In this document: positions 4,725 through 29,928 of the stretch, piece by piece | How the letters are laid out: each line of letters begins with the position of its first letter | How positions within the stretch are numbered: the first letter of the stretch is position 1 | Source: Halorubrum sp. DM2 | GTDB lineage: Archaea; Halobacteriota; Halobacteria; Halobacteriales; Haloferacaceae | Length of the DNA stretch: 39,732 nucleotides | Direction of reading: 5' to 3' | NCBI RefSeq assembly: GCF_901686465.1 | Contig: NZ_LR594487.1 | Coordinates: 1,073,848-1,113,579 of the forward strand | Position numbers and translations under genes: made by a program | The notes under the pieces: model-generated | Database searches by the model: none | What the model was told of the DNA's origin: nothing | What the model saw: only the letters and a program-made list of their open reading frames with translations

Positions 4725-7700
4725 ATGAGCGAGCTTACTGAGGAGATTAAGGAGCAGCTCCCAGATGATCTTCCTTCTAAAGTCCGTGACGCCGAGTACA
4801 ACGAAGAGACTGCGGCGAAGAATTACGGAGTTCAGGTTCTCCAAATTTTGGGGTTAGAGAACGCGAATTACGAGGAGTGGATCAATGAGGATGATAGACC
4901 GGACTTTATCTGGGATGATCACAGCGGAATCACCCGGATTGTAGGAGAGTTCAAAGCACCTTGGGACGATGATCACAGCTCGGACGATGAGCGTTACAAA
5001 CTGAAAGAAGGAATCGATCAGTGTATTGGGTACAACGAGAGTCTCAGGCTGAAGTATATCCTGGTGACTGATGGGCGCTGGATCCACCTCCGTGACGTTT
5101 ACAGCAAGTCTGAGACGGAGTTTGAAGTTGATCTACTGGAGGTTTTTGAAGATCCAAACGATTCGGGTGTGGAGTCTGATGTTGCTGATCTACAGAACCA
5201 GTTGACCAATATTTACGGCGGTGTTTGGAATGAGGAGCCAAGCCAGCGGGATATCTCTGAAGATCACATCTTTGCCGAGTTTATTGAGGCCTCTAATTTG
5301 GCGTTGAATGAGGACTTACTTCCCTCTATTGAGGAAAAGTTCGAAACGTACAGGAGCCGGTTTGAGGAGTACGAGGAAGAGCGGAGTGACCTTATCGAGG
5401 AGCGTAAAGAGACGTTTGAAACGTATCTTGGGTATCGTGACTACGATATTTACAGGGAGGCGATTAGAAAGGCCTCTGAGGATCCGTATTTTGACTACGT
5501 TGAACACTTTGATGATTCCCCGAAAGACGTTACCCCAGAGCCGTTAATCGAGCTTGTTGGAGACTTTATTGACGAAATTCGCGGGATTAAAAAGGATCTC
5601 AACTCGTTGGAGCACGAGTATCGGTTGGCAAGAAACTGGAATAAGAAGTGGCAGCACTGGCTTGAGCTTCGAGGTGTGAATTACGAGGAGGCCTCTCAGT
5701 CAGATCAGGATGATCTGGAGGAAACATTCCAGCTACAGACCTTGAACTTGCTGTATAATCGTTTGCTGATTATCCGTATCTTTGAGGATTTAGGGATTAT
5801 CGGCCAGCTCATCAGTGACGGATTTATCAAGATGTTCGATGAGAAAGTGAAGTTGAAACGCGGAAATAGGTATACTGAGCCTTTGGAATCTGCTTCTAAA
5901 CAGGCCCGTGAAGTCTATAATCCGCTGTTTAAGCGGGATACGCCTCACGATTGGTACCATTATGATGAGAATGTTTTGAAGACGGTTCTACGGCGATTTG
6001 ACAACTATAACTTCCGGAATATTGACCGGGATATCTTCGGAGATATGTATCAGAAGTGCTTGGACAACGAGAAGCGTGAGCGTCTTGGCAGTTTCTATAC
6101 TCCTCCCGAGGTAGTGAACTTCCTGCTAGATTTTACAGGTTATACGAAGCAGAATCGAAAGCTTAGGCAGCGGAATAAACCGGTTATTGATCCGGCTTGT
6201 GGCAGCGGGACGTTTCTGCTGGAGTTCTTCAAGCGGTATATTCAGGCGGAGAAGGAGGCTGGGCGGGATCTTGGAAGTGCGGATACGGTCAAAAGAGTTG
6301 TAAGCAATATAAACGAAAAGCTGCGAGGATTCGATATTGACCCGTTCGCTGTACAGCTTGCTCAGTCCAACTTACTGATTCATTTAATCAGAGAGAAGCG
6401 AGATAGTGCGGATGATAGCGCTGTTACTACCGGTACTGAAGATCACTTGGAGCTTCCCGAGTTCCCGGTTTATGAGACTGATTCGTTGCTGACGACTAAT
6501 GATGAGTCGCTGAATCCTGATCGGTTCTACAGAGCGCGGGAGAAGGATCCTGAACACCTGGACCAGATTATCCGTTCGAAGCAGGATGATTACTCGCTGG
6601 TAATGGGTAATCCGCCGTATATCCGGTATCACAATCAGAGCGGTATTACCGGTAGCTACCAGGAGCTTCACGAAACGTTCGGTGAGAACGGGCCTGATAT
6701 CTACGTAGGATTTGTGGAGCAGGCTCTTGACTGGGCTGAGGAGGGTGGAAAAGTGGCTTTTGTCATTTCCGACCGTATCTTGGTGAATCGTCCTTCTCAG
6801 AAGATTAGACAGTATATGCTGGATAATGCGAAGATTGATCTTGTTGTTGATCTCACGCGTTCCAAGATCTTCGGTTTCGATGTCGACGTCTTCCCGCTGC
6901 TCATCGTGATGACAAAAACGGAGGATGAAGAGGAGCGATTAGACAACGAAATCGACGTAGCTAAGGTGTTTATGAAGGGAAGTTGGGAGCAGCGTACGTG
7001 GTCTCCTGCTCTTGACTTTGTGGCGTCCGAGTTGATGGATGCCGATGAGCCTGACTATGATTTCTCAGAGGACTTTGAGGCCAAGAAGGAGGAGTACAAG
7101 CATATTGAGAACGAGGATGCTTATTCAACGTACACTATTTCGCAGTCGCGGTTTGTGGAGAAGCGCAGTGACTGGAGTAATGAGCAGGTCCTGAATACAC
7201 AGATCCAAGATGAGTTGTGGGATGTCGTCTTGGATATAGAGAATCCTGATGACTGTGTCCGTCTTGAGGATATCACCCAGTTGAATGACGACGGCAGGAT
7301 TGTTACTCGTGGAGGCGGTTCCAGTGATATTAGGCCGTACGAGGCGGATAAGTCGGATCCAGGTTCTGCCCCGGTATTGACCGGCGGTGATATTGACGAG
7401 TTTATTCTTGAATATGAGGGTGAGCACAGCGATTACGTGGATTATGACCGTTTGAAAAGCGAGTTCGAGAGTGATCCGGATAGCGTAGAGATGTCTACGA
7501 ACAAGGCAGATGTAATTCTGAACGAGAAGGTGGTGGCTTGGCGGTACACGGCTCCGAGTCTGTCATTTGTTGTTGACGGCCCAGATAAGGGAAAGAGATT
7601 CTTGAAGCGGAGGATATATTTCCTGCTGCTTAAGGAAAGTAACGGGTTTGATGAGTTCAGTGATCGCTCGAATCTGTTCAATCATCAGTATGTGTGTGGG

Positions 7701-8366
7701 GTATTGAATAGTGATCTTCTGGACTTCTACTACAAGGCCTATTATGAGCACAAGGCTTTCCGACACGCTCCGGAGATTGATGCTCCAGCCGAGTATCTTC
7801 AGCACTTACCGATCTATATTCCGAGTGATAAGGAGCAGGAGGAGATAGTTGGGTGCTCGGAGGAGTTACACAGTCTTCATACGGAGAAGCACCGGAAAGC
7901 GGTTCGGAAAGAGAATTTGTTCAGTCATTATCAGGAGTCGGATAAGCTAATTCCTTTCCGAGATCATATTCGGAAGACGGTGAAGGAGCACAGCAGGTAT
8001 TCTCTTAGTTCGTTGAATACTGAGGTCGATGGTTCAACTCTCCAGTTGAATCAGAGTTTCATCGTGGAGATGTACAGTAATACAGATGCTGAGAATCTTA
8101 AGTCGTTCTTGGAGATGTTTGAGGATGTGTTTGATGAGGGCAGGTTTATCGGTGATGACTTGGATGATTTGAGGCTTCCACGGGATCTGGATGAGTTTGT
8201 AGATGAGTATGATCGGCTGGCATCCGAGGTTGATTCCTTAGATGCTGAAATTGAGGAGCAGAAGGAGAAGTTGAATACTGCGGTGTTCGATATGTATGAT
8301 ATTGACGAGGAGAACAGAGAGAAGATACAGGGTTATTTAGACGACTTCCTGACTGTGATCGAGTAA
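4725..8366 (+). CDS. Type IIG/IIL-like restriction-modification enzyme (fused nuclease, methylase, specificity)
   Basis: 1213 aa single polypeptide. The N-terminus carries a PD-(D/E)XK nuclease: D60 in RPDFIW and E75-F-K77 in GEFKAPW. After a long helical region comes the class I adenine methyltransferase: motif I DPACGSGTF at 489 and motif IV NPPY at 629. The C-terminal third fits a target-recognition region, with a coiled-coil tail near 1165-1190. In this family one protein both methylates and cuts DNA at its recognition site, so no separate hsdS or hsdR is needed. All key residues are intact and there is no frameshift, so it is probably functional. Codon use is rather AT-rich, consistent with transfer. 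Confidence 0.9.
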   Translation: MSELTEEIKEQLPDDLPSKVRDAEYNEETAAKNYGVQVLQILGLENANYEEWINEDDRPDFIWDDHSGITRIVGEFKAPWDDDHSSDDERYKLKEGIDQCIGYNESLRLKYILVTDGRWIHLRDVYSKSETEFEVDLLEVFEDPNDSGVESDVADLQNQLTNIYGGVWNEEPSQRDISEDHIFAEFIEASNLALNEDLLPSIEEKFETYRSRFEEYEEERSDLIEERKETFETYLGYRDYDIYREAIRKASEDPYFDYVEHFDDSPKDVTPEPLIELVGDFIDEIRGIKKDLNSLEHEYRLARNWNKKWQHWLELRGVNYEEASQSDQDDLEETFQLQTLNLLYNRLLIIRIFEDLGIIGQLISDGFIKMFDEKVKLKRGNRYTEPLESASKQAREVYNPLFKRDTPHDWYHYDENVLKTVLRRFDNYNFRNIDRDIFGDMYQKCLDNEKRERLGSFYTPPEVVNFLLDFTGYTKQNRKLRQRNKPVIDPACGSGTFLLEFFKRYIQAEKEAGRDLGSADTVKRVVSNINEKLRGFDIDPFAVQLAQSNLLIHLIREKRDSADDSAVTTGTEDHLELPEFPVYETDSLLTTNDESLNPDRFYRAREKDPEHLDQIIRSKQDDYSLVMGNPPYIRYHNQSGITGSYQELHETFGENGPDIYVGFVEQALDWAEEGGKVAFVISDRILVNRPSQKIRQYMLDNAKIDLVVDLTRSKIFGFDVDVFPLLIVMTKTEDEEERLDNEIDVAKVFMKGSWEQRTWSPALDFVASELMDADEPDYDFSEDFEAKKEEYKHIENEDAYSTYTISQSRFVEKRSDWSNEQVLNTQIQDELWDVVLDIENPDDCVRLEDITQLNDDGRIVTRGGGSSDIRPYEADKSDPGSAPVLTGGDIDEFILEYEGEHSDYVDYDRLKSEFESDPDSVEMSTNKADVILNEKVVAWRYTAPSLSFVVDGPDKGKRFLKRRIYFLLLKESNGFDEFSDRSNLFNHQYVCGVLNSDLLDFYYKAYYEHKAFRHAPEIDAPAEYLQHLPIYIPSDKEQEEIVGCSEELHSLHTEKHRKAVRKENLFSHYQESDKLIPFRDHIRKTVKEHSRYSLSSLNTEVDGSTLQLNQSFIVEMYSNTDAENLKSFLEMFEDVFDEGRFIGDDLDDLRLPRDLDEFVDEYDRLASEVDSLDAEIEEQKEKLNTAVFDMYDIDEENREKIQGYLDDFLTVIE

Positions 8367-9481: not shown

Positions 9482-11488
9482 TTAGGTGAGCTTCCGAATT
9501 TTTTCAAAGATAGGAAGGAACGCTGTGATGTCTGACTCGTCAACATCTCCGCTGTTCAACCGGTCTTGTACTTCATTAGCAACAAGTACTTTATCAAAAT
9601 TACCCATTCCCTGATTACTGAGTACTTCTTCCAATTTGGACGTGATTTTTCTGCCCTTGTACTCCACCTCATTGAGATGGTATATATTCTCACTCTCGTC
9701 GTGTTCGAGCGATATCTCGGAAAATTCGCCCGTAAACTTCTCTGAATAGGACCTGTTGACCGATTCTACATAGAATTCCGTGGAAAACAGATCCTCCAAC
9801 TCAATCCGGAACTCAGGCCTCTCGTCATCGAGTTCAAGTAGGACGATTCTCTCAGGATCGATCTCTTGATGCTGTTCAATGATTTCCTCTTTGGCATCTT
9901 TCCCGGCTTGGTCATTATCTAGTAAGATAACATATGAAAAATCCTCAGATGCCACCCACTTCGCCGCATTCGGCATATTTGGCGCGCCGTTGGTCGGCAT
10001 AATCGACACTTCGTCAGAGTCTATGAAATTCATTCCGACCGATTTGAGATAGTTATTCAGCGCAGTGAAAATATAATAATCCGTCACGCCCTCAACCAAG
10101 ATCTGCCTCTTTGAGGCGAACGGCGAGTCTCCCAGTCCAATTCCCAAGGCGTTTCGAAGTGGTTTCAGTGCCATCGAATCCCCCTCTGCCCAATCGCGTG
10201 TGATCTTCGTCCCCTGTTCGGGTAAGTCTTCGACGAGTCTGATTCTTTCGGGGTGTTCCTTCCGGATTAAGAACGGGGAGTGGGAAGAATAGACGAATTG
10301 AGCATTGTCAGCCATCTGTTCGATCGCATCGAGCCAATTTTTCTTGCCCTCTGGGTGAAGCACGACAGCTGGATCGTCCAGTAAGATCAGTTTATCTCCA
10401 TCTTCACCATTAGTCTCCGCGCTGAGGTTCGTATAGAACGAGAAGAACCATTGGAAGCCCTCGCTCCTACTCGACGGAGGAACAAGATCTCGCTGGACAT
10501 CCTCCCCAGATTTCCCTCCTTTCAGGGAGCTATCTGCGATTTGGACCAAGAACTTGTTCTTGCGGTTGGTGATCGATACGTCAACGGATTTTTGATCCCA
10601 AATAGAATTGACTTCGCCCGACACATCAGTCCCTGCCGTCCGAAGTTCACGCATCTGTGCTAAGTCCTCCTTATCATCAAAATCCTCGTAGTCAATTTCC
10701 GCGAGCTCCAGCAGGTTCCGGAAGGTTCGGTTCTCGGCCTGGTCTAAGGCGTTAATATTTGTTGTGTCCGTAATTCGGTCAAATTCGTCGTGGTAGACTA
10801 TGGAAGGTAGTATCGACGACACATCGAAATCGGAAACAGCCTCAGCTTCTGAATAAGCCTCTTTCAGACCTGTCTTTATCTCTTCAATCGACTGAGTGCT
10901 TTCTCCGGTATCGATTTCTGGGAGAGTATCCAGACCGGAGATCGCATTCTCACACTGATTCAAATTCCACTGGAGAGAATTGTCCTCTCCATTGTTTCTG
11001 ATATTCTTTATGTTCTGCTGAACGTTCTGGTCGTAGCGTTTCCGGAAGTTCCCGGTGTTCTGGTTTCTTAGGTTATTCAGAACTTGCCATGCCTCTTCTA
11101 CATTCTTTCTCAGGACTCTTTTTTGAGCACTACGAGATATCATCGCCTCCCCAGAACCTGACTCAACTCGTCGATCGCCGTTTGATAGCTTCACAACGTG
11201 GATCGGCTCGTCGAACTCCAATGGACCCACTTCTATCGAATCAGTATCTCTCTCCGAGATGAGTTCAACACGGACCATTTCGAAAGGAGTCTCGTCGGGA
11301 CTTTGGTTGTAATTCTGGTCGCGCTCCTTGAATGGCTCATCATGCGAAACGGCCTCTAATGCTTTAAGAAACGAACTTTTTCCACTCTCGTTTTTTCCCA
11401 GCAGCGTAGTAATGTCTGACTGTAATTCAACCCAGTCTGTATCCACGATGGAGCGGAAATACTGTACTCGGGCACGAGAAACAATCAT
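9482..11488 (-). CDS. OLD-family nuclease: ATPase with TOPRIM domain
   Basis: 668 aa. N-terminal ABC/SMC-like ATPase: Walker A GKNESGKSS at 31-39, Walker B LILLDDP with D371-D372, then a switch histidine motif YSSHSPFLI. The C-terminal TOPRIM nuclease has E466 in LVEGVTDYY and the DxD pair D524/D526 in LLDNDQAG. Domain order and size match OLD (overcoming lysogenization defect) proteins, metal-dependent DNases coupled to ATP binding and linked to anti-phage defence. A GajB-type UvrD partner is not adjacent; the UvrD-like gene at 18.6 kb belongs to a different operon. A TATA-like box 27 bases upstream of the ATG supports leaderless expression. The gene sits between 47-bp direct repeats, suggesting mobilisation as a cassette. 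Confidence 0.88.
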   Translation of the reverse strand: MIVSRARVQYFRSIVDTDWVELQSDITTLLGKNESGKSSFLKALEAVSHDEPFKERDQNYNQSPDETPFEMVRVELISERDTDSIEVGPLEFDEPIHVVKLSNGDRRVESGSGEAMISRSAQKRVLRKNVEEAWQVLNNLRNQNTGNFRKRYDQNVQQNIKNIRNNGEDNSLQWNLNQCENAISGLDTLPEIDTGESTQSIEEIKTGLKEAYSEAEAVSDFDVSSILPSIVYHDEFDRITDTTNINALDQAENRTFRNLLELAEIDYEDFDDKEDLAQMRELRTAGTDVSGEVNSIWDQKSVDVSITNRKNKFLVQIADSSLKGGKSGEDVQRDLVPPSSRSEGFQWFFSFYTNLSAETNGEDGDKLILLDDPAVVLHPEGKKNWLDAIEQMADNAQFVYSSHSPFLIRKEHPERIRLVEDLPEQGTKITRDWAEGDSMALKPLRNALGIGLGDSPFASKRQILVEGVTDYYIFTALNNYLKSVGMNFIDSDEVSIMPTNGAPNMPNAAKWVASEDFSYVILLDNDQAGKDAKEEIIEQHQEIDPERIVLLELDDERPEFRIELEDLFSTEFYVESVNRSYSEKFTGEFSEISLEHDESENIYHLNEVEYKGRKITSKLEEVLSNQGMGNFDKVLVANEVQDRLNSGDVDESDITAFLPIFEKIRKLT

Positions 11489-12648: not shown

Positions 12649-14691
12649 ATGCCTTCTCAGGATCTAACGGACCAGTTCATAGATTTCTACCAGAACTTTT
12701 ACCGCGAGGAGGTTGGAGCCCTCGCACAGAACTACCCTGACGATCAGCGATCGCTGTATCTCTCTTACGACGATCTCTATCGATTTGACCCGGACTTGGC
12801 AGAAGACTTCCGTGCGAAACCGGATGCGATGCGGGAGTACGCAGAGGAAGCCCTCCGGCTCTACGATCTCCCGGCCGATGTGAGCCTCTATGGGGCACAC
12901 GTTCGAGTTACGGACCTCCCAGAGAACATCGGTATTAGCGATATTCGAGTCCATGACGACCATGTTGGTGAACTCATCTCATTCCGAGGTGTTGTCCGAA
13001 AGGCAACCGACGTCCGACCGAAAATCACGGAGGCTGCCTTCGAGTGCCAGCGATGTGGCACACTGACGTACATCCCTCAAAGCGATCGCGACTATCAAGA
13101 GCCCGAAGTGTGTCAAGGGTGCGAACAGCGGGGACCGTTCAGGCTTAACGTGGACCAGTCCGAGATGATCGATTCTCAGAAGCTACGCGTCCAAGAGCCA
13201 CCGAAGGGCGATGGGACGGGTGAAACGCCGCAGTCGATCGAGATTGATCTCATCGACGATCTGTGTGGCGACGTTACGGCTGGAGACCACGTTACGGTGG
13301 TCGGAATGCTCCGTGCAGAGCAGATGGACGGTGGCAACAAGAATCTCGTTGATCTCTACGTCGACGGCCTCTCGATAACGCCGAGTGACGAATTCGACCT
13401 TCAGCTACGAGGCGATGAGGAACAGCAGATCCGGGAGCTGATCGACAATGGAGAGATATTCACGGCACTTCAGGATTCTCTCGCTCCGTCGATCTACGGT
13501 CTGGAGACCGAGAAACTCGCAATCCTGCTTCAGTTGTTCAGCGGTGTCCAGAAGGAGACCGAGGAGGGTGAGACGATCCGGGGGAATCCCCATATTCTAT
13601 TAGTAAGTGATCCGGGTATCGGGTTGAGTCGGATCCTCCGTTCTGCAGCACGAGTCTCTCCACGGTCAACGTATAGCAACGGGGCCGAAACGTCGAGAGC
13701 TGGAGTAACAGCGGCTGCGGCTCGGACGGGTGGACAAGATGGTCCGTGGGAGTTGAAGGCGGGGGCACTCCCGATCGCTGACCGCGGCCTTGCGGTAATT
13801 GACAATCTCGATGATCTCGACGACGACGTAATGGGTGCGCTCACCGAGCCGATGGAACAGCAGCAAATCACGATTTCGAAGGCATCTATCCACGAATCCG
13901 TCGATACCCGAGTGGGTGTACTCGCTGCCGGCTCCCCCAAGTACGGTAGATTCGACCAATATGAGCCGATCGGGGACCAACTGGACGTGGATAACCACTC
14001 ACTTACGCTCTTTGACCTCGTATTCACAGTCACCGACAATCCCAACCCGGAGATAGATGAGCACACCGCGGACCACGTACTGGACATCAACCAGGTGGGA
14101 GAATTACGAGAGGCTGGTGAAGATCCTGACCCAGCTGAGTCCGTTGATGCCCCGGTAGATTCTCAGACTATCCAGAAACATATCGCAACCGCTCGTCGGC
14201 TCCATCCGGTGCTGACAGACGAAGCAAAAGACCACATCACGGAGTTCTACGTTGATCTTCGCTCGAAGGGAGCTGACGAGGATGCCCCAGTACCAGTTAC
14301 AGCCCGAAAATTGGAAGCACTGGTGCGTCTCTCAGAAGCGAGCGCCCGAATACGACTCTCAGAGACGGTCGAGGGCGAGGATGCGGAGCGCGCGACGAGG
14401 ATTGTCGAGTCGTGTCTCAAAGACATCGGTGTCGATCCCGACACAGGACAGTTCGACGCAGACGTAGTTGAAACGGACACCTCGGAGGTACAGGAGCACA
14501 GTCCCCAGAACCTCAAGGAGCTCATCGCGGAGATAGAGAACGACCACAGGCAAGGTGCACCTATTGACGAGATATACGCTCACGCGACTCACATCGGTCT
14601 GGATCAAGGTCAAGTAGACAGTGAGCTTCAGAAACTCCGGACGAAGGGTGAGGTGTATGAACCAGTTGAAGATCATCTCAGAACGACCTGA
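12649..14691 (+). CDS. MCM helicase paralogue with inactivated ATPase
   Basis: 680 aa from the ATG at 12649; MPSQDLTDQFIDFYQNFYRE matches the usual N-terminus of haloarchaeal MCM. The N-terminal OB-fold domain is intact, including two Cys pairs (CQRCGTL and CQGCEQRG) that form the zinc site. The AAA+ core is collinear with MCM, but each key residue is changed. Walker A reads SDPGIGLS (Lys to L326). Walker B reads VIDNLDDL (Glu to N386). The Arg-finger motif LSRFD reads LTLFD (Arg to L454). The C-terminal TARKLEALVRLSEASARIRL segment is conserved. The frame is open throughout, so selection seems to keep the protein while ATP hydrolysis is lost. It may bind DNA, or join or interfere with host MCM hexamers. 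Confidence 0.9.
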   Translation: MPSQDLTDQFIDFYQNFYREEVGALAQNYPDDQRSLYLSYDDLYRFDPDLAEDFRAKPDAMREYAEEALRLYDLPADVSLYGAHVRVTDLPENIGISDIRVHDDHVGELISFRGVVRKATDVRPKITEAAFECQRCGTLTYIPQSDRDYQEPEVCQGCEQRGPFRLNVDQSEMIDSQKLRVQEPPKGDGTGETPQSIEIDLIDDLCGDVTAGDHVTVVGMLRAEQMDGGNKNLVDLYVDGLSITPSDEFDLQLRGDEEQQIRELIDNGEIFTALQDSLAPSIYGLETEKLAILLQLFSGVQKETEEGETIRGNPHILLVSDPGIGLSRILRSAARVSPRSTYSNGAETSRAGVTAAAARTGGQDGPWELKAGALPIADRGLAVIDNLDDLDDDVMGALTEPMEQQQITISKASIHESVDTRVGVLAAGSPKYGRFDQYEPIGDQLDVDNHSLTLFDLVFTVTDNPNPEIDEHTADHVLDINQVGELREAGEDPDPAESVDAPVDSQTIQKHIATARRLHPVLTDEAKDHITEFYVDLRSKGADEDAPVPVTARKLEALVRLSEASARIRLSETVEGEDAERATRIVESCLKDIGVDPDTGQFDADVVETDTSEVQEHSPQNLKELIAEIENDHRQGAPIDEIYAHATHIGLDQGQVDSELQKLRTKGEVYEPVEDHLRTT

Positions 14692-14785: not shown

Positions 14786-15673
14786 CTACCTGTTGCCTAC
14801 AGCGACTTCCATCTCGGCGTCTCCAAACGCAGATCCGAAGATGGTGTTTAGAATTCGCATTCCGATTTCGACCGTTCGATGGGGATCTATCGGCCCATTA
14901 CCCTTGTCGTAGATTTTCCATTCATGATCTCTATTGCCCCCTAAGAACCGCATCCCGAGATCGTCTGCGATGTACTTTAGCTGGTCAAGTTGCTCTCCAT
15001 CGACATCGAGATAATGAATGTTCCGTCGTTCCTCAAGGTTGTTCTGGTGGGACCGCCCGTGGAACAGGGTGTACGCCACAGTGTCGTCAACCGTGACGGT
15101 CAGCTTCATATCCTCAGGAGATGTCTCCGCCATCTGGTTGAAGTCTTTGACCATATTCCAATTGCGTGAGCCTTCATACGCCTCAACGGATCTATCGATA
15201 TCATCGTGAAACGACGGGTCAGACTCGGTGTCGGGCTCGATATAGTCGGAAATGGTCTCCGATAGGTCCCAGTCTACGATCATCTGCGTCAGCGTTTCGC
15301 CATCGACAATGCGGAGATTGTATTCGGCTGCCTTCTTGCGTGCGGGACGGGTCAAACTGCTTGTCGTCACCAGGGCGACAACATCGGCGTCGACGTCACG
15401 ATCTGGGCTCTTGTCCAGATACAGGCTGCTGTACTGCTGGACATCCGGAACACCGATCTTGTTGCCCTTAGCGTACCGTTTCGTTTGGATGAGTTGCTTT
15501 TGAGCGAACGGGAGATTCTTTCTGGCAATCACGTCGATACCACCGTCTCTGGATCGGTCTGTGATGGTTGTGTCCCACCCCATGTACTCCCAGATATCCG
15601 CAATCAGCTTCTCGAATTCATGTGATTCGAGCATCCGCAATTGCGTTAAGAGTTCATCCCGTGGGACGTTCAC
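14786..15673 (-). CDS. Mrr-family restriction endonuclease
   Basis: 295 aa. Residues 8-125 form a restriction-endonuclease-type Mrr_cat domain: LESHEFEKLIADIWEYMGW, then RDGGIDVIA with D47, then QTKRYAKG with Q63-x-K65. These are the catalytic Asp and Gln-x-Lys positions of Mrr-like enzymes. Mrr proteins cut DNA carrying foreign, usually modified, bases. The C-terminal 150 residues, which begin after DLSETISDYIEPD, form an extra domain I do not recognise and may set specificity. The gene is convergent with the MCM-like gene. Nearby restriction and OLD genes make a genome-defence role likely. Confidence 0.85.
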   Translation of the reverse strand: MNVPRDELLTQLRMLESHEFEKLIADIWEYMGWDTTITDRSRDGGIDVIARKNLPFAQKQLIQTKRYAKGNKIGVPDVQQYSSLYLDKSPDRDVDADVVALVTTSSLTRPARKKAAEYNLRIVDGETLTQMIVDWDLSETISDYIEPDTESDPSFHDDIDRSVEAYEGSRNWNMVKDFNQMAETSPEDMKLTVTVDDTVAYTLFHGRSHQNNLEERRNIHYLDVDGEQLDQLKYIADDLGMRFLGGNRDHEWKIYDKGNGPIDPHRTVEIGMRILNTIFGSAFGDAEMEVAVGNR

Positions 15674-16049: not shown

Positions 16050-18635
16050 GTGCCATTTCCCCGCGCGAAATCATCTCGTCAACTCTACGAAGAAGTGAAA
16101 TCGTACGATCGGGTGATTGTCCCGGACGGGCCACTCGCGAGCGCGCTTAACCGCCAACTCGATCGGCCACACCTCGGTCCATTCGCGATCCCGCCACGTC
16201 GGCTTGCGGTCGGTCGCCGGCAAGAATCCGAGGACCGGCTTGCGTTCCTCGGTATGATAGCCAACGAGGACATCTCGTGGAAACGGTGTGCTTACGCGGT
16301 CGGTAATATCCTCCAGTGTTGGGAACACCAGGGGACACACGATGCGATTTTCGAGTACGATGCCTATCTCGACGACGCCACCGAACGAGCAGTTGAGCGC
16401 ATCGCAGAACTCGAAACTGCCTCAATGAAGCTCACAAACGAGACTATCGATCCGGATCTCGACGTGGTGGTTGTCGAACCGGAGATGCTTACCCAGCTCG
16501 AACAAGCGTATCTGCCTGCTGCGTACGACACTGTTAGCCTCTTCACTGATCGCGAATTCGAGTTACCAGCGTTCCGTATTCATAACTCACCAACAGCGAT
16601 CGTCGAAACGGTCGTCAATTCAATCACTGAAGCGAACGCGGAGAATGTCGGGATCGTACTCGATCAAGGAAGTGAGTACTCGCCGCTCATCGAGTCTGCG
16701 CTCGAAGCAGCTGACATTCCGTTCTTCGGTGGTCCAGGCTTTATCGATCGTGGTGAACATCGGTTGTTCCTCCACTTCCTCCGAACTGCCCACCGAGGGA
16801 CCGATACTCGAATAAGCGAGATTCGATCGCTGTTGACAGCATTCGACTGTGCTGTTGCCGACCGTGATTCAGAGAAGCGTCTCCATGAACTGGACGATGG
16901 CGAATTGTCGTGGCTAATTGAGTTCAGCCACGATATTCAGCAGTACACGTTTTCGGACGCGCTCTCCACGTTTGAAAACCGCGCCGATGAGACGCTTGCT
17001 GGCTTTCAAGAGGAGTTGGAGACGCTTGGCATCGCCGACGAGTCCGTCACAGAAGCCCGGCTCGATGAATTATCGTTCTATCTCCAGACGTATGAGGTGC
17101 CTGTCGACCGAGACAATGAAGGTGTACTGCTCGCCGATGCGAAGTCGGCATCATACGTCGGTCGAGAGGTTGTCTTCTACTTAGGTCTCGACGAGCGGTG
17201 GACACACTCGGCACCACGTCGCCCGTGGGTTGATCAGGATGCTCAGTTTACGCGGAATATCAAGAGCTTCCAGTTGCTGTTACAGAGCGGCAGCCAGCAA
17301 CACTATCTTGTTCAAGATTCGACTGGTGGGGCCGCTGTCACTCCGTGTCTGTACTTCGAAGAGCTCCTCGAAGAAGAGTACGAATCCTTCTCCGACTTGT
17401 CATCGACTACTCACCACACACATTCCGAACCACACGACGGGGCTGTATTCGACACAGAGCCCGTTGATGTGGACTCCAAGCCCGTCGAGACGATCAGTAA
17501 GTCGAGTCTCAACACCTACGTGAACTCTCCGCGGGACTACTACTTTAGCCGGATCGTCGACGGCCCAGAGAAGGATTATCTCACAGAGGGCAACTTACTC
17601 CATAATTTTGCGGAATTCTATGTCAACCACCCAGCTGTCATCGATGATGCGGCACTCACGAAGGTTGTCGATCTCATGCTAGATGAGGTCCGCCCGCTCG
17701 TCCGTTCTGTCGACGAACAGACGCGCCGTACCGAGTACCGTGCAAGCCTCGAAACAATTGTCTCGTATCTCGAGGAAAACCCCCCGCCGGATGGGGCATT
17801 CCTTACACCCGCCAGCAAAGGTGAGAACACCGTTGCCGCTCACTTCGGTCACGACATTGACTCTCCTGTGACTGAGCGCCGGTTCACTGACGACAGTTTG
17901 GGCATCAACGGGATGATTGACCTCGTCCAGTCGGAAACCGAACTGCTTGATTACAAAAGCGGCAGTGAAAACAGCGCTAATTCGATAGTCAAAGACGCTG
18001 CGATCGACGAGCCGACAGACGAACCTGACTTTCAGGCATTGTTGTATCTAACCTATTGGCGGTCACAAACGCCTGCTGAGCAGCTCTCATTCACGTTCTT
18101 CTATGTTACCGAGCTCGTCGACGACATGATCGCTGGCGATGGTACTCTCGATGACGCACTGACCACGATAACATACTATCCTGAATCGCTTACTGAACAC
18201 GTCCAAACTGAATCGTTCTTCGAGTACCTTCGTGAGGAGGGAGCAAACAAGTGCCAGAAGATCCTCTCGAAGATTGACTATCAGACGTACGCTGCCGTCT
18301 TTGATGCCGCACCGCTCGTTGAGACGACAGATAGCGACGAACTCATCGAATCAGCGTTCGGCCAGACAATGATTAAGCGGCTTGAATCAGAAATTGGCGA
18401 GTACAAGTACGTTAAGACGGGGAGTAAACAGGTCATGCGAGAGATTGCTCGGCAGCAGAAGGGCGCGTTCTTCGAACCTGATTTTGATGCATTCGAGTCG
18501 TTCGTCGAGGAGCGATTGACAGAGCTCAACCGGCGTCGGACTGGCGATGAGTCCTTCCCTATCGAGGGTCTTGCCGGCGAGCCGAATTACCGACGGGTGG
18601 ATAATCGTGATTTGCTCTTGGAGGGTGACCAATGA
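16050..18635 (+). CDS. AddB-like PD-(D/E)XK nuclease subunit
   Basis: 861 aa starting at GTG. The N-terminal two thirds resemble an inactivated UvrD-like scaffold as in AddB (no Walker A is seen). The C-terminus holds a RecB-family nuclease: SKSSLNTYVNSPRDYYFSR, then a GNLLHNF helix, then GINGMIDLV followed by LLDYKSGS (the Asp and Asp-Tyr-Lys motif). The AddB iron-sulfur cysteine pattern is not seen. Its last bases overlap the next gene (ATGA), which encodes the helicase partner, so the two are translationally coupled. The pair probably processes double-strand DNA ends for recombination or degrades foreign linear DNA. Confidence 0.8.
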   Translation: MPFPRAKSSRQLYEEVKSYDRVIVPDGPLASALNRQLDRPHLGPFAIPPRRLAVGRRQESEDRLAFLGMIANEDISWKRCAYAVGNILQCWEHQGTHDAIFEYDAYLDDATERAVERIAELETASMKLTNETIDPDLDVVVVEPEMLTQLEQAYLPAAYDTVSLFTDREFELPAFRIHNSPTAIVETVVNSITEANAENVGIVLDQGSEYSPLIESALEAADIPFFGGPGFIDRGEHRLFLHFLRTAHRGTDTRISEIRSLLTAFDCAVADRDSEKRLHELDDGELSWLIEFSHDIQQYTFSDALSTFENRADETLAGFQEELETLGIADESVTEARLDELSFYLQTYEVPVDRDNEGVLLADAKSASYVGREVVFYLGLDERWTHSAPRRPWVDQDAQFTRNIKSFQLLLQSGSQQHYLVQDSTGGAAVTPCLYFEELLEEEYESFSDLSSTTHHTHSEPHDGAVFDTEPVDVDSKPVETISKSSLNTYVNSPRDYYFSRIVDGPEKDYLTEGNLLHNFAEFYVNHPAVIDDAALTKVVDLMLDEVRPLVRSVDEQTRRTEYRASLETIVSYLEENPPPDGAFLTPASKGENTVAAHFGHDIDSPVTERRFTDDSLGINGMIDLVQSETELLDYKSGSENSANSIVKDAAIDEPTDEPDFQALLYLTYWRSQTPAEQLSFTFFYVTELVDDMIAGDGTLDDALTTITYYPESLTEHVQTESFFEYLREEGANKCQKILSKIDYQTYAAVFDAAPLVETTDSDELIESAFGQTMIKRLESEIGEYKYVKTGSKQVMREIARQQKGAFFEPDFDAFESFVEERLTELNRRRTGDESFPIEGLAGEPNYRRVDNRDLLLEGDQ

Positions 18636-21481
18636 GCGACGTTACGCCAAACCCGGAGCAACGCGACCTTATTGAGTCAACCGACGGCCTGTATCTCGTC
18701 GACGCTGGTGCTGGCACCGGGAAGACCTTCACCGTCACCCGACGATATGCGAACATCGTCGATAAGGACGGGATCGATCCGTCTGATGTCCTGTTGGTGA
18801 CGTTCACGAACAACGCAGCTGCGGAAATGCGAGAACGGATCGTGCGGAACAGCGAGTATGGAATGCGGGAACTTTCGAATGCCCCGATCCAGACGTTCCA
18901 CTCGTTGGCACACGATATTCTCGACGAACACGGCCATGATGCTCCGACACACCTCGGGGTTGAGGAGACGATCACCGGCTCAACCCGAATTATCGAAGAC
19001 GACATCATCGAACAGGCACTGTTTCGTGAATTTATCGGCCAGTTCATTGATTCACACCCGGAGTACGATGAGTTCTTCACCGCGATCTCGGAGACGACAG
19101 AACTGCTCGATCTCATCAAAGAACTGTCTGCGAAGGGTGTGTTTCCGACCGCAAACGGGTGGTACCGCGACGGCGAGTCACACCTTGACGGTGACTTTGA
19201 GGCATTCGAGACGCTGTTTACCGATCTGAATGCGCCTCGAAACGGTGGAAGCAAGCAGTCGAAGCTCCGCGAGAAGCTCAACGACTACGGGACAGAGAAA
19301 ACCTACCTTCCGGAGGCCCCAGAGCAGTGGGAGCTTCGCGGGAACGGCAAACAGATTCCAGCGGATGTCGCCGGACGCGTTTTTGAGGACGATCGAACAG
19401 CACTCAAGCAGTTCGTCCACGATGTGTATCACGCCTACCTTGAGTTTGCGCTTCGACGGAACTACCTGAACTTCGGGTTCCTTCAGCTGTTTGCGTTCGT
19501 CCTTCTGTGTGAAGACCACGATCTTCGAGAGCGACTGGGGTACGAGTATGTGATGGTCGACGAGTTCCAGGACTCCAGTGAGATCCAGTTCAAACTCATG
19601 CTTCTTCTGGCCGGCACAGAGAATATCTGTGTGGTCGGTGACTGGAAGCAAAGCATCTACAGCTTCCAATACGCCGACGTCGATAACATCCGTGAGTTCG
19701 ACGATCGACTCCAGCGGTTCGCCGAAGAGCTGAACCGGGACGCAGATCGCGTCACGTTCCCGACGACGGCGGCTACCAGCAAACAACTGACACGGAACTA
19801 CCGGTCAACCCAATCTATCCTGCGGTTCTCGACACAGGCGCTGACGGCTCGTGCGACGAACAGTGAGTTACTCGATGTTGAGGCCATCTCCGAGGCGGTC
19901 ACACGGTTGAAGGCGGACACAGACCATGACGAGAGCCGTATCGAGGCGCTCACAAGTGAGGATGAACACGAGGCGATTCTCGCGAAAATCGACGACATCG
20001 TCGACAACGATGACTACGCCGTTGAGGGTGACGATGGTGAGTACCGCGCGCCGAAGTACGGTGATATCGCCGTATTGACCCGAACCCGCGATTTCGGACG
20101 GGACATACTCGACACGGCAAGCGAATACAACCTGCCGATGGCCTACGAGGGAGGGATCGAGGTCTTCAGAACCGATGCTGCGAAGTTGCTGTTAGCGTGG
20201 CTCCGCATCCTCGAACGTGACGCCGACCGTGGTTGGGCACTCGTCTTAGAAGAGGCCGGATACACGATCGACGAGGTGAAAGCGATCACCGATCGCGGGA
20301 CGTACCCTGAAGAGATGGTTGCCTTCCGTGAAACCCTTCGAGAGATGGAGACATTCGGGGGTGTCGCCCGTCGCGTGTTCGATCGGTACGACCAGAGTGG
20401 TCCAACCGCGGACGTTGTACTTGACACGATTCAGTCGGTTCACGGGACGACAACGTTCACTCGTGGAGAGCTCATCCAGTTTATCGAAGCCGCGATTGAA
20501 GACGGCAGCACCGATGAGGTTGACGCTGGTGCGGGGATGAATGCGGTGACTGTTCAGACCATCCACGCAACGAAAGGGCTCGAATATCCGATTGTCATCC
20601 TCGCGAATATGAACACGAACAAGTTCCCATCAACTGGTGGCAGCGGGAGCGATATCGCGTACACAGATCCAATCGGACTCCGACAGCGGAAGGTGTACTC
20701 TGAAGAGGCTCACGATGTCCCACACGTCTACCACAACTGGCAGTCAGACGTTCTCAATAAGTGTCTCCCTCAGAACTACGATGAGGAACGCCGACTGCTC
20801 TACGTGGCTATTACGCGTGCTGAGAGCCACGTCATTCTAACCGGCGGTGAGAATCCAAATGTGTTCCTTGATGAACTCCCCGTTAATATCGAAACAGTCG
20901 ACCCGGATCTGTCGTCCTTCAGCGCAGTAGATAACGAGTCATCACCGTTTACCGTTGACATTCCGGATCCTGATGGGCCAGCAAGCTACTCTCCGCATAC
21001 GTTCATCGATGATGCCGTTTTCGAAGGGGATACCGGTGGTCGAGGGATGGAATTCGGATCGGAGGTCCACGAGTTCGCAGAGCGGTATGTGCTTGGTGAG
21101 ACTGTCGACACCGGTGACAACTCCGATAAGGAGAACGTACGGGACTTCTTGGAGTCACTCGACGGCGAGAAGATCGCCGAAATCGATGCGTTCCTCCCGC
21201 TGACCGTCGACGACGAGGAAGTGACGATCGGTGGGATCATCGACCTGCTCCACGTTACTCCTGACCACGTTGACATCGTCGACTACAAGACCGATCTCTC
21301 GACTCACGCCGAAGAGGAGTATACGAAGCAACTCAGTATCTACTACCACGTTGTCGTCGACCAATATCCAGATCGGTCGGTCTCTGCTTCGATCTTCTAC
21401 ACCGATAATGGTGACCGTGGTGAGATTGAACCTCTCAGTAGATCGGAGCTCAAAGAGTTAGTCCGAACTCACAGAGCGTAA
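18632..21481 (+). CDS. AddA-like UvrD/Rep helicase with C-terminal nuclease
   Basis: 949 aa. Superfamily 1A helicase motifs are in order: Walker A AGAGTGKT (25-32), Walker B VDEFQDSS with D310-E311, motif III GDWKQSIYSFQYAD, motif IV RNYRSTQSIL, motif V IHATKGLEYPIV and motif VI LLYVAITRAESH. The last 150 residues carry a RecB-type nuclease: GSEVHEFAERY, then GGIIDLL and VDIVDYKTDLS. This is the AddA arrangement (helicase plus nuclease). The start overlaps the stop of the AddB-like gene by four bases. With it, it likely forms a two-nuclease end-resection complex. Confidence 0.88.
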   Translation: MSDVTPNPEQRDLIESTDGLYLVDAGAGTGKTFTVTRRYANIVDKDGIDPSDVLLVTFTNNAAAEMRERIVRNSEYGMRELSNAPIQTFHSLAHDILDEHGHDAPTHLGVEETITGSTRIIEDDIIEQALFREFIGQFIDSHPEYDEFFTAISETTELLDLIKELSAKGVFPTANGWYRDGESHLDGDFEAFETLFTDLNAPRNGGSKQSKLREKLNDYGTEKTYLPEAPEQWELRGNGKQIPADVAGRVFEDDRTALKQFVHDVYHAYLEFALRRNYLNFGFLQLFAFVLLCEDHDLRERLGYEYVMVDEFQDSSEIQFKLMLLLAGTENICVVGDWKQSIYSFQYADVDNIREFDDRLQRFAEELNRDADRVTFPTTAATSKQLTRNYRSTQSILRFSTQALTARATNSELLDVEAISEAVTRLKADTDHDESRIEALTSEDEHEAILAKIDDIVDNDDYAVEGDDGEYRAPKYGDIAVLTRTRDFGRDILDTASEYNLPMAYEGGIEVFRTDAAKLLLAWLRILERDADRGWALVLEEAGYTIDEVKAITDRGTYPEEMVAFRETLREMETFGGVARRVFDRYDQSGPTADVVLDTIQSVHGTTTFTRGELIQFIEAAIEDGSTDEVDAGAGMNAVTVQTIHATKGLEYPIVILANMNTNKFPSTGGSGSDIAYTDPIGLRQRKVYSEEAHDVPHVYHNWQSDVLNKCLPQNYDEERRLLYVAITRAESHVILTGGENPNVFLDELPVNIETVDPDLSSFSAVDNESSPFTVDIPDPDGPASYSPHTFIDDAVFEGDTGGRGMEFGSEVHEFAERYVLGETVDTGDNSDKENVRDFLESLDGEKIAEIDAFLPLTVDDEEVTIGGIIDLLHVTPDHVDIVDYKTDLSTHAEEEYTKQLSIYYHVVVDQYPDRSVSASIFYTDNGDRGEIEPLSRSELKELVRTHRA

Positions 21482-22072: not shown

Positions 22073-23245
22073 TCAAAACAGCGACTCTAGTTCCCCGTCG
22101 CTATCCATCAGCTCCGAGAACTTGTCCTCGCTTTCGCCGGTGATCTCACCGATATTCTGTTGTGCTTCGATCGCGACTTGCTGAAGCTCTTTCACCCGTG
22201 GAACGTTCGTCACACCGCCGAGCAACACGAGCGCTGCGACCGTTCCTCCCCTACGTCGTGGATAGTCCCCACCGCGGACTTCCATTGACCCGGTCTGTTC
22301 TTCGAGCCACTTGCGACCGTGCTCGATTCCCTTTCGATTGAGATAGGCCGGTGGGCCGGCGATAACGAGCAGTGCCCGCTCGGTGCCGTTCACCTCACAC
22401 GGGAGCGTAAGTCGACCAAGGGTCGCCTTCCGAACGAGACTCGTAATCCGATTAGTAGCCTCTGTACTGTCGATCCCGTCATCGGAATCACCGCGGAGCC
22501 GCGAGAGCAACCCCTTCCGCTCTGGCTCGTCCACCGCGACGTCGGCGTAGCCGAGCGAGGAAATCCCGCCACCTTTGAGCGTGTTGATGATCTCCGAGGA
22601 GTCAACCACACTCTCGGCGACGTCGCTTCCCTTGACCACTTCACCCGCACTGAAGAGCACGCCGAACCGCTGGACGAGCTCCTCGTTGATCGCGTCGAAC
22701 CCTTCCTCAACGGACTCGCCAGAGCTGCGCCACGCATCGTTGTCGAACAGCATGAGGTTATCCACCTCGTCGACGAACGTTTTGAGCGATCGGGCGGCGT
22801 TCAGCGTGTAGATCCCACCCTCATCGCTGCCGGGGAGAATTCCGAGCCCGTACACGGGTTCGGTGTAGATCTGTTTGAGGTTCTTGGCGATCACGGGCGC
22901 CCCACCTGATCCGGTCCCGCCACCGAGCCCTGCGACAACGAGGAACGCGTCGATCTCGTGGATTGGTACCGAGTCAAGCGCTCCGAGGATCTCGCCGATA
23001 TCTTCTTCGGCAACCTCCGCGCCCAGTTCGTTATCGGCGCCCACACCGTGGCCCTTCACTCGCGACTGTCCGATCAGGATTCGGCGGTCTGTCGAGAGGT
23101 GGTCTATGCCTTGAAGATCTGCTTTTGCCGTGTTGACGGCGATCGCTCCACGAACAATATCCGCACCCGTCCGTGCGTCGTAGGCCAAGAACTCGCCGAC
23201 CACCTTCCCGCCCGCCTGTCCAACCCCGATCAATGCGAGTTTCAT
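22073..23245 (-). CDS. cetZ: CetZ tubulin-superfamily GTPase
   Basis: 390 aa from the ATG at 23245 (MKLALIGVGQAGGKVV); an upstream extension of the frame is not CetZ-like and would cross the repeat region. The glycine-rich nucleotide loop GVGQAGG is followed by the tubulin signature GGGTGSGGAPV near residue 105 and the N-x-D region LMLFDNDAWR. CetZ proteins are haloarchaeal tubulin/FtsZ relatives that control cell shape and motility rather than division. Length and motifs fit a functional paralogue. A TATA-like box and three palindromic repeats lie just upstream. Confidence 0.93.
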   Translation of the reverse strand: MKLALIGVGQAGGKVVGEFLAYDARTGADIVRGAIAVNTAKADLQGIDHLSTDRRILIGQSRVKGHGVGADNELGAEVAEEDIGEILGALDSVPIHEIDAFLVVAGLGGGTGSGGAPVIAKNLKQIYTEPVYGLGILPGSDEGGIYTLNAARSLKTFVDEVDNLMLFDNDAWRSSGESVEEGFDAINEELVQRFGVLFSAGEVVKGSDVAESVVDSSEIINTLKGGGISSLGYADVAVDEPERKGLLSRLRGDSDDGIDSTEATNRITSLVRKATLGRLTLPCEVNGTERALLVIAGPPAYLNRKGIEHGRKWLEEQTGSMEVRGGDYPRRRGGTVAALVLLGGVTNVPRVKELQQVAIEAQQNIGEITGESEDKFSELMDSDGELESLF

Positions 23246-23278
23246 GTGAATAGTCCACATGTCACTACGCGAGGAAGA

Positions 23279-23288
23279 CAGATAAAGG
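23279..23288 (-). promoter_or_regulatory. TATA-like box of cetZ
   Basis: Minus-strand CCTTTATCTG is centred about 38 bases upstream of the cetZ ATG and implies a short leader. The first palindromic repeat begins seven bases further upstream, where BRE or regulator contacts would fall. Confidence 0.4.
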
Positions 23289-23294
23289 TTCGAA

Positions 23295-23415
23295 GAACAC
23301 TGGAAAACCGGTGTGGGGGGTCCATGAATAGTGAAATCTGGTGAGAACACTGGAAAATCGGTGTGGTGTCTCTGCGAATCGTTAGCACGATAAACACTGG
23401 AAAAACGGTGTGGGG
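23295..23415. repeat. Three spaced palindromic repeats (ORB-like or operator sites)
   Basis: Three near-identical copies of ACACTGGAAAANCGGTGTGG occur at 23297, 23347 and 23394, in the same orientation and spaced 50 and 47 bases apart. Each is an imperfect palindrome (ACACTGG / CCGGTGT) and copies one and three are followed by a G-run. The TGGAAA core with a following G-run recalls archaeal origin recognition boxes, but no orc1/cdc6 gene is in the window. The sites lie between cetZ and the winged-helix gene and could regulate either. Confidence 0.75.
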
Positions 23416-28269: not shown

Positions 28270-29928
28270 CTAGCGAACGTCGGGGTTCTCCACGCGGAGG
28301 TCGTAGTCTTCGCCAGTGTCTAGGTCGACGTAGTCGCCGAGACCGACTGTCCGGCCCTTCTCGCAGTCGTCCTTACAGCGGGTGCGGCGGTCGCCGTCCG
28401 CCGTCTGCCACTGTATCTCCCCCGTGCTCGGTCGGTAGACCTGGCGCCCCGCGAACGTCGATGTCGACGTCCCGACGACGAGCGCCTGGAACCGCTCCAT
28501 CATTAGCGACGCCACCAGTCCGTTTGTCGTCACAACGCTTGGGTCACGCAGCTCGTCGCTGCCGTCGTCAGCCTCGCCGGGTTCCCGTTGTACGTACAGC
28601 CCACCGTTGTCCGCGCGGTCCTGAGGTGGCTGTCGGTCCCGGACGACCCCAGATCGTCGGTCGCCCTGCTTCCACGCTCCGAGGCAGTGGAGGCATGCCA
28701 TACCTGGGCCAGCGGTCTCGACTGTCGACCGCGCACCCGCCGCGAGCTTGTCAGTCTCCTCGTCGACCTGGAGGTGCGTCCCACCGGAGACAACGGGTAT
28801 GAGGTGGGCGTAGGCCACCCGGTCGACGACCTTCTGGACCCAGTGCGGGTCCGCGGCGTTCAGGATGATGTCACAGTCCAGCACTGCGCCGAGCGCGCTG
28901 TGGTCTTTGTTGGCGTCCTCGATGATGCTGCCGTGGACTGCTCGTGCTTGGAATCCGGGTGCTGTCGCGGCCTCTTCGGCGATGTTACGGGCGAGATCGG
29001 CCTTCCGGACGTTCGACCGGGCGTCCTCTCGGGACGCGCCGTAGGCGCGGTTCAGGTTTGCCCCCTTCAGGTGATCGAAGTCAACGAATATGGCGCCACC
29101 AACGCCTAGGCGCGCGATCTGCTCAGCGAGTAGTGACCCGACACCGCCACACCCGACGACGGCCACGCGGATACCACTGAGACGGGCCTGCCCACGTTCA
29201 CCCCACAGTTCGAGCGTGCTGTCGTGGGCGACCGTCCCCGACCCAAGGCCGGGACCGGCGGGCCCTTGTGCGCTGAAGGTGGTTTCGAACTTCTCGAGGA
29301 ATGGCCCGTTCCGAAGCTTCTCGACGGGAGACGTACCGAGCACGCGCACGGCGGTTGCCTCCGTCTTCTCCGGAGGGCTGCCAGTAGTGAAGTCGTAGGC
29401 GCGGAAGCTCCACTCTGGCTGGTCGGTTTCCCGCCGAGGTTTGCTTGCGATGATGCCGGCGCCGAATGGGCGGTCAGCCCCGAGACGTTCGGCGTTGGAT
29501 TCAAGCCGCATCGGGTCTGCCTCTAGGTCCGGCTTGGAGGGATACGCGCTCCATCCCGGATGGGAGTGGAAGTATGCGATACCCTTCCGCGGGTCGTGCT
29601 CGATGGTAGTCGCTGCTCGCGCTCGGTATGCCGGACTGAGCTTCAGGCTCCCGTCCCGGACATGGACATCGTTCTCTGTCTGGGGCGGGACGACGTCGTC
29701 GACGATGTATGTGACTCGGGAGTCACCAGTGCTGCGCGTGAGGGTCGTAATCACGCCCTGTTCGTAGCGGTCGGGCTGGTACTTGGACCCCTCTGGCTGC
29801 CGATCAGCGTACTCAGGTCGGAGGTGGCCGTACAGCGTCTGCTGGATGTCCTGGGTCATGGCAACATGGAACTCCGCAGCATCCCCGACAGGATAGGGAT
29901 CTGGGAGCGCGTCGTCGCGGCCGCTCAT
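28270..29928 (-). CDS. JAB/JAMM protease fused to E1-like ThiF adenylation domain
   Basis: 552 aa. Residues about 20-185 form a JAB/JAMM isopeptidase: H121-S-H123-P followed by S131-K-P-D134, the complete zinc motif. Residues about 240-420 form an E1/ThiF Rossmann domain: VVGCGGVGS (257-265), FVDFDHLKGANLNR (281-294) and ILNAADP near 356. CxxC (412, 415) and CxxxC (518, 522) can bind structural zinc. One protein could thus trim or remove a ubiquitin-like modifier (JAB) and also activate its C-terminus with ATP (E1). The first four bases overlap the stop of the E2-like gene. This is the last gene of the Ubl operon. Confidence 0.9.
   Translation of the reverse strand: MSGRDDALPDPYPVGDAAEFHVAMTQDIQQTLYGHLRPEYADRQPEGSKYQPDRYEQGVITTLTRSTGDSRVTYIVDDVVPPQTENDVHVRDGSLKLSPAYRARAATTIEHDPRKGIAYFHSHPGWSAYPSKPDLEADPMRLESNAERLGADRPFGAGIIASKPRRETDQPEWSFRAYDFTTGSPPEKTEATAVRVLGTSPVEKLRNGPFLEKFETTFSAQGPAGPGLGSGTVAHDSTLELWGERGQARLSGIRVAVVGCGGVGSLLAEQIARLGVGGAIFVDFDHLKGANLNRAYGASREDARSNVRKADLARNIAEEAATAPGFQARAVHGSIIEDANKDHSALGAVLDCDIILNAADPHWVQKVVDRVAYAHLIPVVSGGTHLQVDEETDKLAAGARSTVETAGPGMACLHCLGAWKQGDRRSGVVRDRQPPQDRADNGGLYVQREPGEADDGSDELRDPSVVTTNGLVASLMMERFQALVVGTSTSTFAGRQVYRPSTGEIQWQTADGDRRTRCKDDCEKGRTVGLGDYVDLDTGEDYDLRVENPDVR

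Follow-up and report, generated by a model that had tools for sequence, protein, structure and literature searches.

We found that the 39,732-nucleotide stretch of Halorubrum sp. DM2 DNA analyzed here (the window) encodes a full-length MCM paralogue (12649..14691, plus strand; 680 amino acids plus stop by ORF translation, Pfam matches and residue read-out) that has lost the active-site residues of its motor, and we infer from its sequence that it cannot power unwinding. An earlier note on this DNA had described a Walker A Lys replaced by Leu, a Walker B Glu replaced by Asn and an arginine finger replaced by Leu, in a frame without stops over 2 kb that kept the zinc site. The residue read-out agreed at all three positions, the 680 codons contained zero internal stops, and the zinc cysteines were present. 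The Walker A remnant GIGLS (13615..13629; this and the following motifs are on the plus strand) corresponds to GTGKS in the host MCM, with Lys changed to Leu; the Walker B remnant IDNLDD (13798..13815; host VDELDK) carries the Glu to Asn change; and in the arginine finger motif LTLFD (14002..14016; host ISRFD) the Arg is Leu. A fourth motor change, which that note had missed, is the replacement of the sensor-1 Asn by Ser in AAGSPK (13924..13941; host AANPK), and the residues of an active helicase are thus absent, the protein reading L, D-N, S and L at Walker A, Walker B, sensor 1 and the finger. The PS1-hairpin TISKAS (13870..13887) retains its Lys, with the host-invariant Gly changed to Ser, and sensor 2 (PVTARK, 14293..14310) retains its Arg. 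We consider it about an even chance that this is an element-derived, functional, non-hydrolysing MCM, an inert subunit that works through the host MCM/Orc1 pathway.

Membership of the MCM family was clear from Pfam, which identified MCM_N, MCM_OB, the MCM P-loop domain, MCM_lid and the HVO_B0008_C C-terminal domain, with PF14551, PF17207, PF00493 and PF17855 in order and above cut-off. The top Foldseek matches of an AlphaFold model of the protein (pLDDT 70.5) were MCM structures (TM 0.57). The motor and lid of this model were confident and its N-terminal tier, built from a 10-row alignment, was weak, so that the model would speak for an intact MCM fold and not for interfaces. In MCM proteins the Walker motifs and sensor 1 are described as acting in cis, and the arginine finger and sensor 2 in trans (PMC13049513), and according to a review, mutation of nearly any active-site residue abolishes the ATPase (PMC4619765).

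The same genome contains another MCM (G000:C1:1579861-1581945), which is 58% identical to the window protein and has intact K/D/E/N/R (here and below, Walker A, Walker B Asp and Glu, sensor 1 and finger, in that order). Core haloarchaeal MCMs are described as occurring once per genome and carrying GDPGTGKS, DELD and SRF (PMC3972481). As this core copy sits elsewhere in the genome, the window protein is not the core replicative MCM, and as the window lies inside the single 3.45-Mb contig of its genome, its gene is chromosomal. The window protein shares with core haloarchaeal MCM (HVO_0220 type) the domain order, zinc site, PS1 Lys, sensor-2 Arg, lid and winged helix (WH), but differs in being an extra copy with the Walker A Lys, Walker B Glu, sensor-1 Asn, finger and PS1 Gly replaced. 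A host core MCM was found in 9/9 searched genomes that have a dead or degenerate MCM, in addition to the window genome, and 35 of the 36 host MCMs of the panel were K/D/E/N/R; the odd residue of the one exception (G261) falls where intein pieces overlap in the alignment.

The same type of protein was present in two others among 52 genomes of the genus, those of Halorubrum halodurans (682 amino acids, full length, 68% identical to the window protein, Ile/Asn/Ala/Leu) and H. tebenquichense (85% identical, Leu/Asn/Ser/Leu, the same four residues as in the window). The earlier note had proposed asking whether the substitutions recur in relatives, and their recurrence as L/N/S/L and I/N/A/L argues that they are neither chance nor sequencing error. 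With a motor-domain profile run against 170 genomes of the family, the three Halorubrum proteins scored 370-391 bits and everything else at most about 200 bits. Several blocks of the window are collinear with the H. tebenquichense contig, which puts the gene at one and the same site in the two. The H. tebenquichense copy consists of about the C-terminal 370 residues; its N-terminal half is gone and a DDE transposase gene adjoins it, which indicates that the gene is dispensable there.

The protein of the earlier note proved to belong to a broader family on plasmids of other haloarchaeal families, which we reached through plasmid searches and a wider profile. In eight further haloarchaeal MCMs, on plasmids or smaller contigs, the arginine finger Arg is changed to Gln, and in 7 of the 8 the Walker B Glu is lost as well. 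The plasmid MCMs of Halorussus vallis and Salinibaculum KK48 and the MCM of G327 contig 21 all read K/D/N/N/Q; the others are those of the Halorussus pelagicus plasmid (K/D/D/N/Q), G198 contig 8 (E/E/S/H/Q), Haloarcula sinaiiensis pHsi139 (T/S/R/Q/Q), H. taiwanensis pNYT2 (V/H/E/T/Q) and G419 contig 5 (V/T/R/R/Q). Two more, on Halobacterium hubeiense pSTJ003 and G234 contig 2, differ only by a Walker B Glu to Asp change. Among 392 genomes of the order, 10 contained a DNA pattern for the absent arginine finger. In 8 of these the match lay in an MCM, and the other two (G084 and G440) were set aside by eye as non-MCM; this pattern misses two Haloarcula plasmid copies, and the count is therefore a lower bound. 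Applied to 146 genomes of one family (54 of them new to the survey), it added one MCM, in G520, whose coordinates coincide with those of the Salinibaculum copy; the 28 genomes searched in another family yielded known copies only. The dead family is thus sparse yet spread, occurring in families f1, f4, f7 and f17, with the Glu-to-Asp pair in f12. No relative turned up in viruses with the three Halorubrum motor domains as queries; with the wider profile there were 13 viral loci, and those whose motor motifs were read out have K/D/E/N/R. Searches of plasmid and phage proteins gave no match at 60% identity or above, though they led to the other dead MCMs.

To place these losses among other conserved positions, we used 80 columns that are invariant in 14 hosts and retained by 16 or more of the 17 active element MCMs. 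In the 10 dead MCMs the five ATPase columns were retained at a mean of 0.30 and the remaining 75 columns at 0.88; as the dead group was defined by its catalytic residues, only the retention of the other columns counts as independent, and the p value of this contrast is illustrative. The most altered columns were the arginine finger (kept in 0/10), the PS1-hairpin Gly (0/10), the Walker B Glu (1/10) and Gly 201 (3/10), a residue in what we take to be the loop joining the N-terminal tier to the motor; neither the PS1-hairpin Gly nor Gly 201 played a part in defining the group. The Walker A Lys, the sensor-1 Asn and the second Walker B Asp were each kept in 4/10 dead MCMs, the four zinc Cys and the PS1 Lys in 10/10, and the sensor-2 Arg in 9/10. 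In the PS1 hairpin, KAG is changed to KA[ST] in all 10 dead proteins, and the Gly is Asp in the Glu-to-Asp pair. Host-invariant residues of the lid and winged helix were retained at 0.76 in dead MCMs, versus 0.53 in active element MCMs. The window protein has the marks that define the dead clade: no arginine finger, the PS1 KAG to KA[ST] change, and a motor that falls inside that clade.

Between the window and H. tebenquichense motors, dN was 0.024 and dS 0.23 (ratio 0.105, by our own NG86 script), and the lid ratio was 0.20; pieces of the host MCM from the same pair of genomes gave 0.04 and 0.12. Purifying selection acts on the motor domain, and loss is concentrated on motor residues. The earlier note had held that a neutral ratio, with no homologues sharing the substitutions, would count against a retained protein, and we found a low ratio and relatives with the same changes, which together favor a protein that is retained and predicted to be non-hydrolysing. 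The uninterrupted frame and the motor ratio also set the gene apart from a pseudogene. That inactive copies are simply spread by plasmids and decaying, with no present function, appears very improbable to us: the H. tebenquichense copy is cut beside a transposase, a second copy on the H. vallis plasmid is split between frames, and truncated MCM pieces lie beside several copies, as would be expected from decay, but the ratio of 0.105 lies within the dead motor itself, the ten dead MCMs are full-length and stop-free in at least four haloarchaeal families, and motor residues were lost while the 75 other near-universal columns were kept at 0.88.

Trees pointed to different histories for different parts of the protein. 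The whole-protein tree, built with the catalytic columns removed, left out a protein of Natrinema pallidum pNPA70, the half-length H. tebenquichense protein and the viral row L077. In it the 10 dead and the 2 Glu-to-Asp proteins formed one group (89/90), separate from the hosts as well as from active element and viral MCMs. Two further trees, one of the motor and one of the N-terminal domain (NTD) with lid and winged helix, additionally excluded HATV-3, pNG300, Halosegnis, the outgroup and one duplicate. The motor tree, again without catalytic columns, united the 12 degenerate proteins in one clade (98/95) and rejected a grouping of dead Halorubrum with host Halorubrum proteins (p = 0.007); with 181 AAA-only columns and long branches, it rejected placement of the Halorubrum pair with all hosts at p = 0.037 only. 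The NTD and lid/winged-helix tree placed the Halorubrum pair inside the Halorubrum-family hosts (99/91) and the Glu-to-Asp pair inside the f12 hosts (100/97), and it rejected a single clade (AU p = 1.2e-5 for the 10 dead proteins, 0.0004 for all 12).

Family-diagnostic sites, counted in the nine proteins with a known own host, gave own-family states at 51/67 in NTD-A, 39/81 in OB/Zn, 40/68 in the lid, 27/34 in the winged helix and 5/33 in the motor. Six active element MCMs, from f1 genomes or their virus, had Halorubrum-family states at 43/64 (NTD-A), 20/38 (lid) and 6/17 (winged helix), and since these also lean host-like in NTD-A, host matching there is not special to dead MCMs. The Salinibaculum protein departs from its own host (NTD-A rank 11/37, lid rank 37/37). 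In its winged helix the H. tebenquichense protein shares 84% identity with the window's host MCM and 51% with the window's dead MCM, and the dS of this segment against the window is 1.9, versus about 0.2 in the motor, which indicates a module swap. A shared motor clade together with ends that follow the host gives the protein the look of a mosaic, with an old dead motor flanked by host-like ends, although the ends could also have arisen by passive gene conversion with host mcm. A recent independent duplication of the entire host gene is unsupported for the motor (5/33 own-family sites). It remains as a rival, in which each host's mcm was duplicated independently and the motors were lost in parallel; this ancestry, which would fit any function, is possible, and the nesting of the Halorubrum and f12 proteins within their own hosts, with rejection of one clade, is what it predicts, but we doubt it in view of the 5/33 motor sites, the 98/95 motor clade, the rejected Halorubrum grouping (p = 0.007) and the H. 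tebenquichense winged helix, which is direct evidence of module exchange.

Alteration of both Walker motifs raised the question of inteins, as inteins A and C are reported at Walker A and just past Walker B (PMC3972481). We rejected intein escape as the chief explanation, since the losses extend to the arginine finger and to sensor 1, neither of which is an intein site.

The genes near these MCMs bear on what the protein may do. Orc1/Cdc6 genes were near the MCM in 5 of 12 distinct loci (H. tebenquichense, where it is adjacent, pNYT2, pHsi139, G327 and Salinibaculum), and none was found in the 39,732-nucleotide window. A ParA gene adjoins the MCM on pHsi139 and lies about 6 kb off on pNYT2. 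This proximity, together with the retained N-terminal DNA-binding tier and PS1 Lys, would suit an independent non-motor DNA-binding ring or clamp, for example in origin marking or element partition; we regard such a role as unlikely, as it would not need a host-like lid and winged helix, which the dead family nevertheless retains better than active element MCMs do. Whole-record searches of the H. pelagicus, H. hubeiense and Salinibaculum plasmids found no other full-length MCM, the H. vallis plasmid has only fragments and the split copy besides its dead MCM, and on pHsi139 and on pNYT2 there is one further long MCM match each.

Host-like ends, shared motor ancestry and the proximity of Orc1/Cdc6 in some relatives favor a role with the host MCM and its loader over that of a self-sufficient helicase; they do not separate a helper from a poison. 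A dominant-negative poison would block MCM rings of the host, of competing elements or of viruses, in incompatibility, exclusion or defence. With both the cis elements (Walker A and B, sensor 1) and the trans element (arginine finger) lost, a single subunit would spoil both ATP sites that it touches, and the window gene lies amid restriction, OLD/GajA-like and Mrr genes. We nonetheless judge a poison improbable: the window protein is 58% like the host MCM and at most about 40% like viral MCMs, so the host would be hit first, the carrier plasmids must themselves replicate, and the MCM itself had no match in the defence-model library that we searched.

For the inert subunit acting in the host pathway, we infer that the protein joins or docks on host MCM and Orc1. 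In this model the N-terminal tier would serve ring formation and DNA contact and the C-terminal lid and winged helix would serve loader contact, and through these parts the dead MCM would enter the host MCM loading pathway. It might do so as an inert subunit within mixed rings with host MCM, or by forming a ring on DNA that docks on Orc1/Cdc6 and the host MCM, and the element would thereby recruit or throttle the host helicase at its own origin. The chromosomal Halorubrum copy is probably a remnant of, or recruited from, an element replication module. More speculatively, and with considerable doubt, we propose that a dead motor module travels among haloarchaeal plasmids and time and again acquires its N-terminal tier and winged helix from the MCM of the host in which it resides. 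The resulting inert subunits in mixed host rings would be an archaeal, mobile-element counterpart of hetero-hexameric Mcm2-7, by which the host helicase is captured or controlled. Moreau in 2007 is said to have dealt with mixed Sulfolobus MCM rings, and Krupovic in 2010 reportedly with MCM and mobile elements.

A known archaeal precedent for an inactive MCM is Methanopyrus kandleri MCM2 (PDB 3F8T), likewise a paralogue without a working ATPase (PMC2933578, PMC3972481). As compared by its description, that protein has natural internal deletions and no EXT hairpin (PMC2933578), whereas the haloarchaeal dead MCMs are full length with all domains, occur in several families and are often on plasmids. 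The "outlier" haloarchaeal MCMs of Kristensen et al. (2014) are, like these, extra element copies beside the core MCM. Among the 39 haloarchaeal MCMs of that survey, the motifs are reported intact in 26/26 core proteins and in 9/9 full-length outliers, which keep the Walker A Lys, DEL/ID and SRF, and four outliers are N-terminal domain only (PMC3972481); in contrast, the ATPase residues are lost here in full-length proteins. The eukaryotic Mcm2-7 heterohexamer resembles our proposed working form in being a ring of non-identical MCM subunits, but a mixed ring is here only proposed, and archaeal MCM is described as a homohexamer (PMC13049513). We recognized no paper on motor-dead full-length haloarchaeal MCMs in the open-access literature, a scope that mostly leaves aside subscription papers, and this form is apparently new.

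Plasmid MCM genes are often taken for the carrier plasmid's own helicase, and in a 2023 survey MCM is given as the candidate replication gene on 20/41 vesicle plasmids (PMC10818511). Judged by their active-site residues, some plasmid MCMs are unlikely to be motors, in which case the annotation "MCM helicase" would mislead and such plasmids would have to borrow the host helicase. The recurrence of such dead motors on plasmids of other haloarchaea suggests that mobile elements steer the host replication machine with a motorless ring subunit. The family also offers natural tests, in genetically tractable haloarchaea, of the route from homohexameric rings to rings of specialized subunits, and of how many dead subunits an MCM ring tolerates.

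Several other genes of the window are of note. Near the MCM are an Eco57I/IIG-like methyltransferase-restriction protein (4725-8366), an OLD/GajA-like AAA-TOPRIM protein (9482-11488) and an Mrr-type nuclease (14786-15673), which form a defence-like island. An 861-amino-acid PDDEXK protein and an adjacent 949-amino-acid UvrD-like helicase with a C-terminal PDDEXK (16050-21481) resemble AddB/AddA or GajB; this pair had no match in the H. tebenquichense stretch from MCM to CetZ, which has Orc1/Cdc6 and other genes instead. The CetZ tubulin-like gene itself (22073-23350) encodes a protein with a 97% identical counterpart in the same relative place in H. tebenquichense. A ThiF/E1-like protein (28270-29928) with a weak JAB match is near the E1-E2 models of the defence library.

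Outside the window, the split second copy on the H. vallis plasmid is L121 (G261 contig 5, 127009-129071). Truncated MCM pieces beside plasmid dead MCMs cover the lid and winged helix only (L044, 5689-6483), the N-terminal domain only (L045, 1289-2263) or the winged helix only (L124, 12512-12694), and could be debris or regulators. The MCM-like protein of Natrinema pallidum pNPA70 (L092, 1300-2619) is 27% identical, reads F/E/Q/T/A and has no matched zinc site; it is possibly a separate dead lineage.
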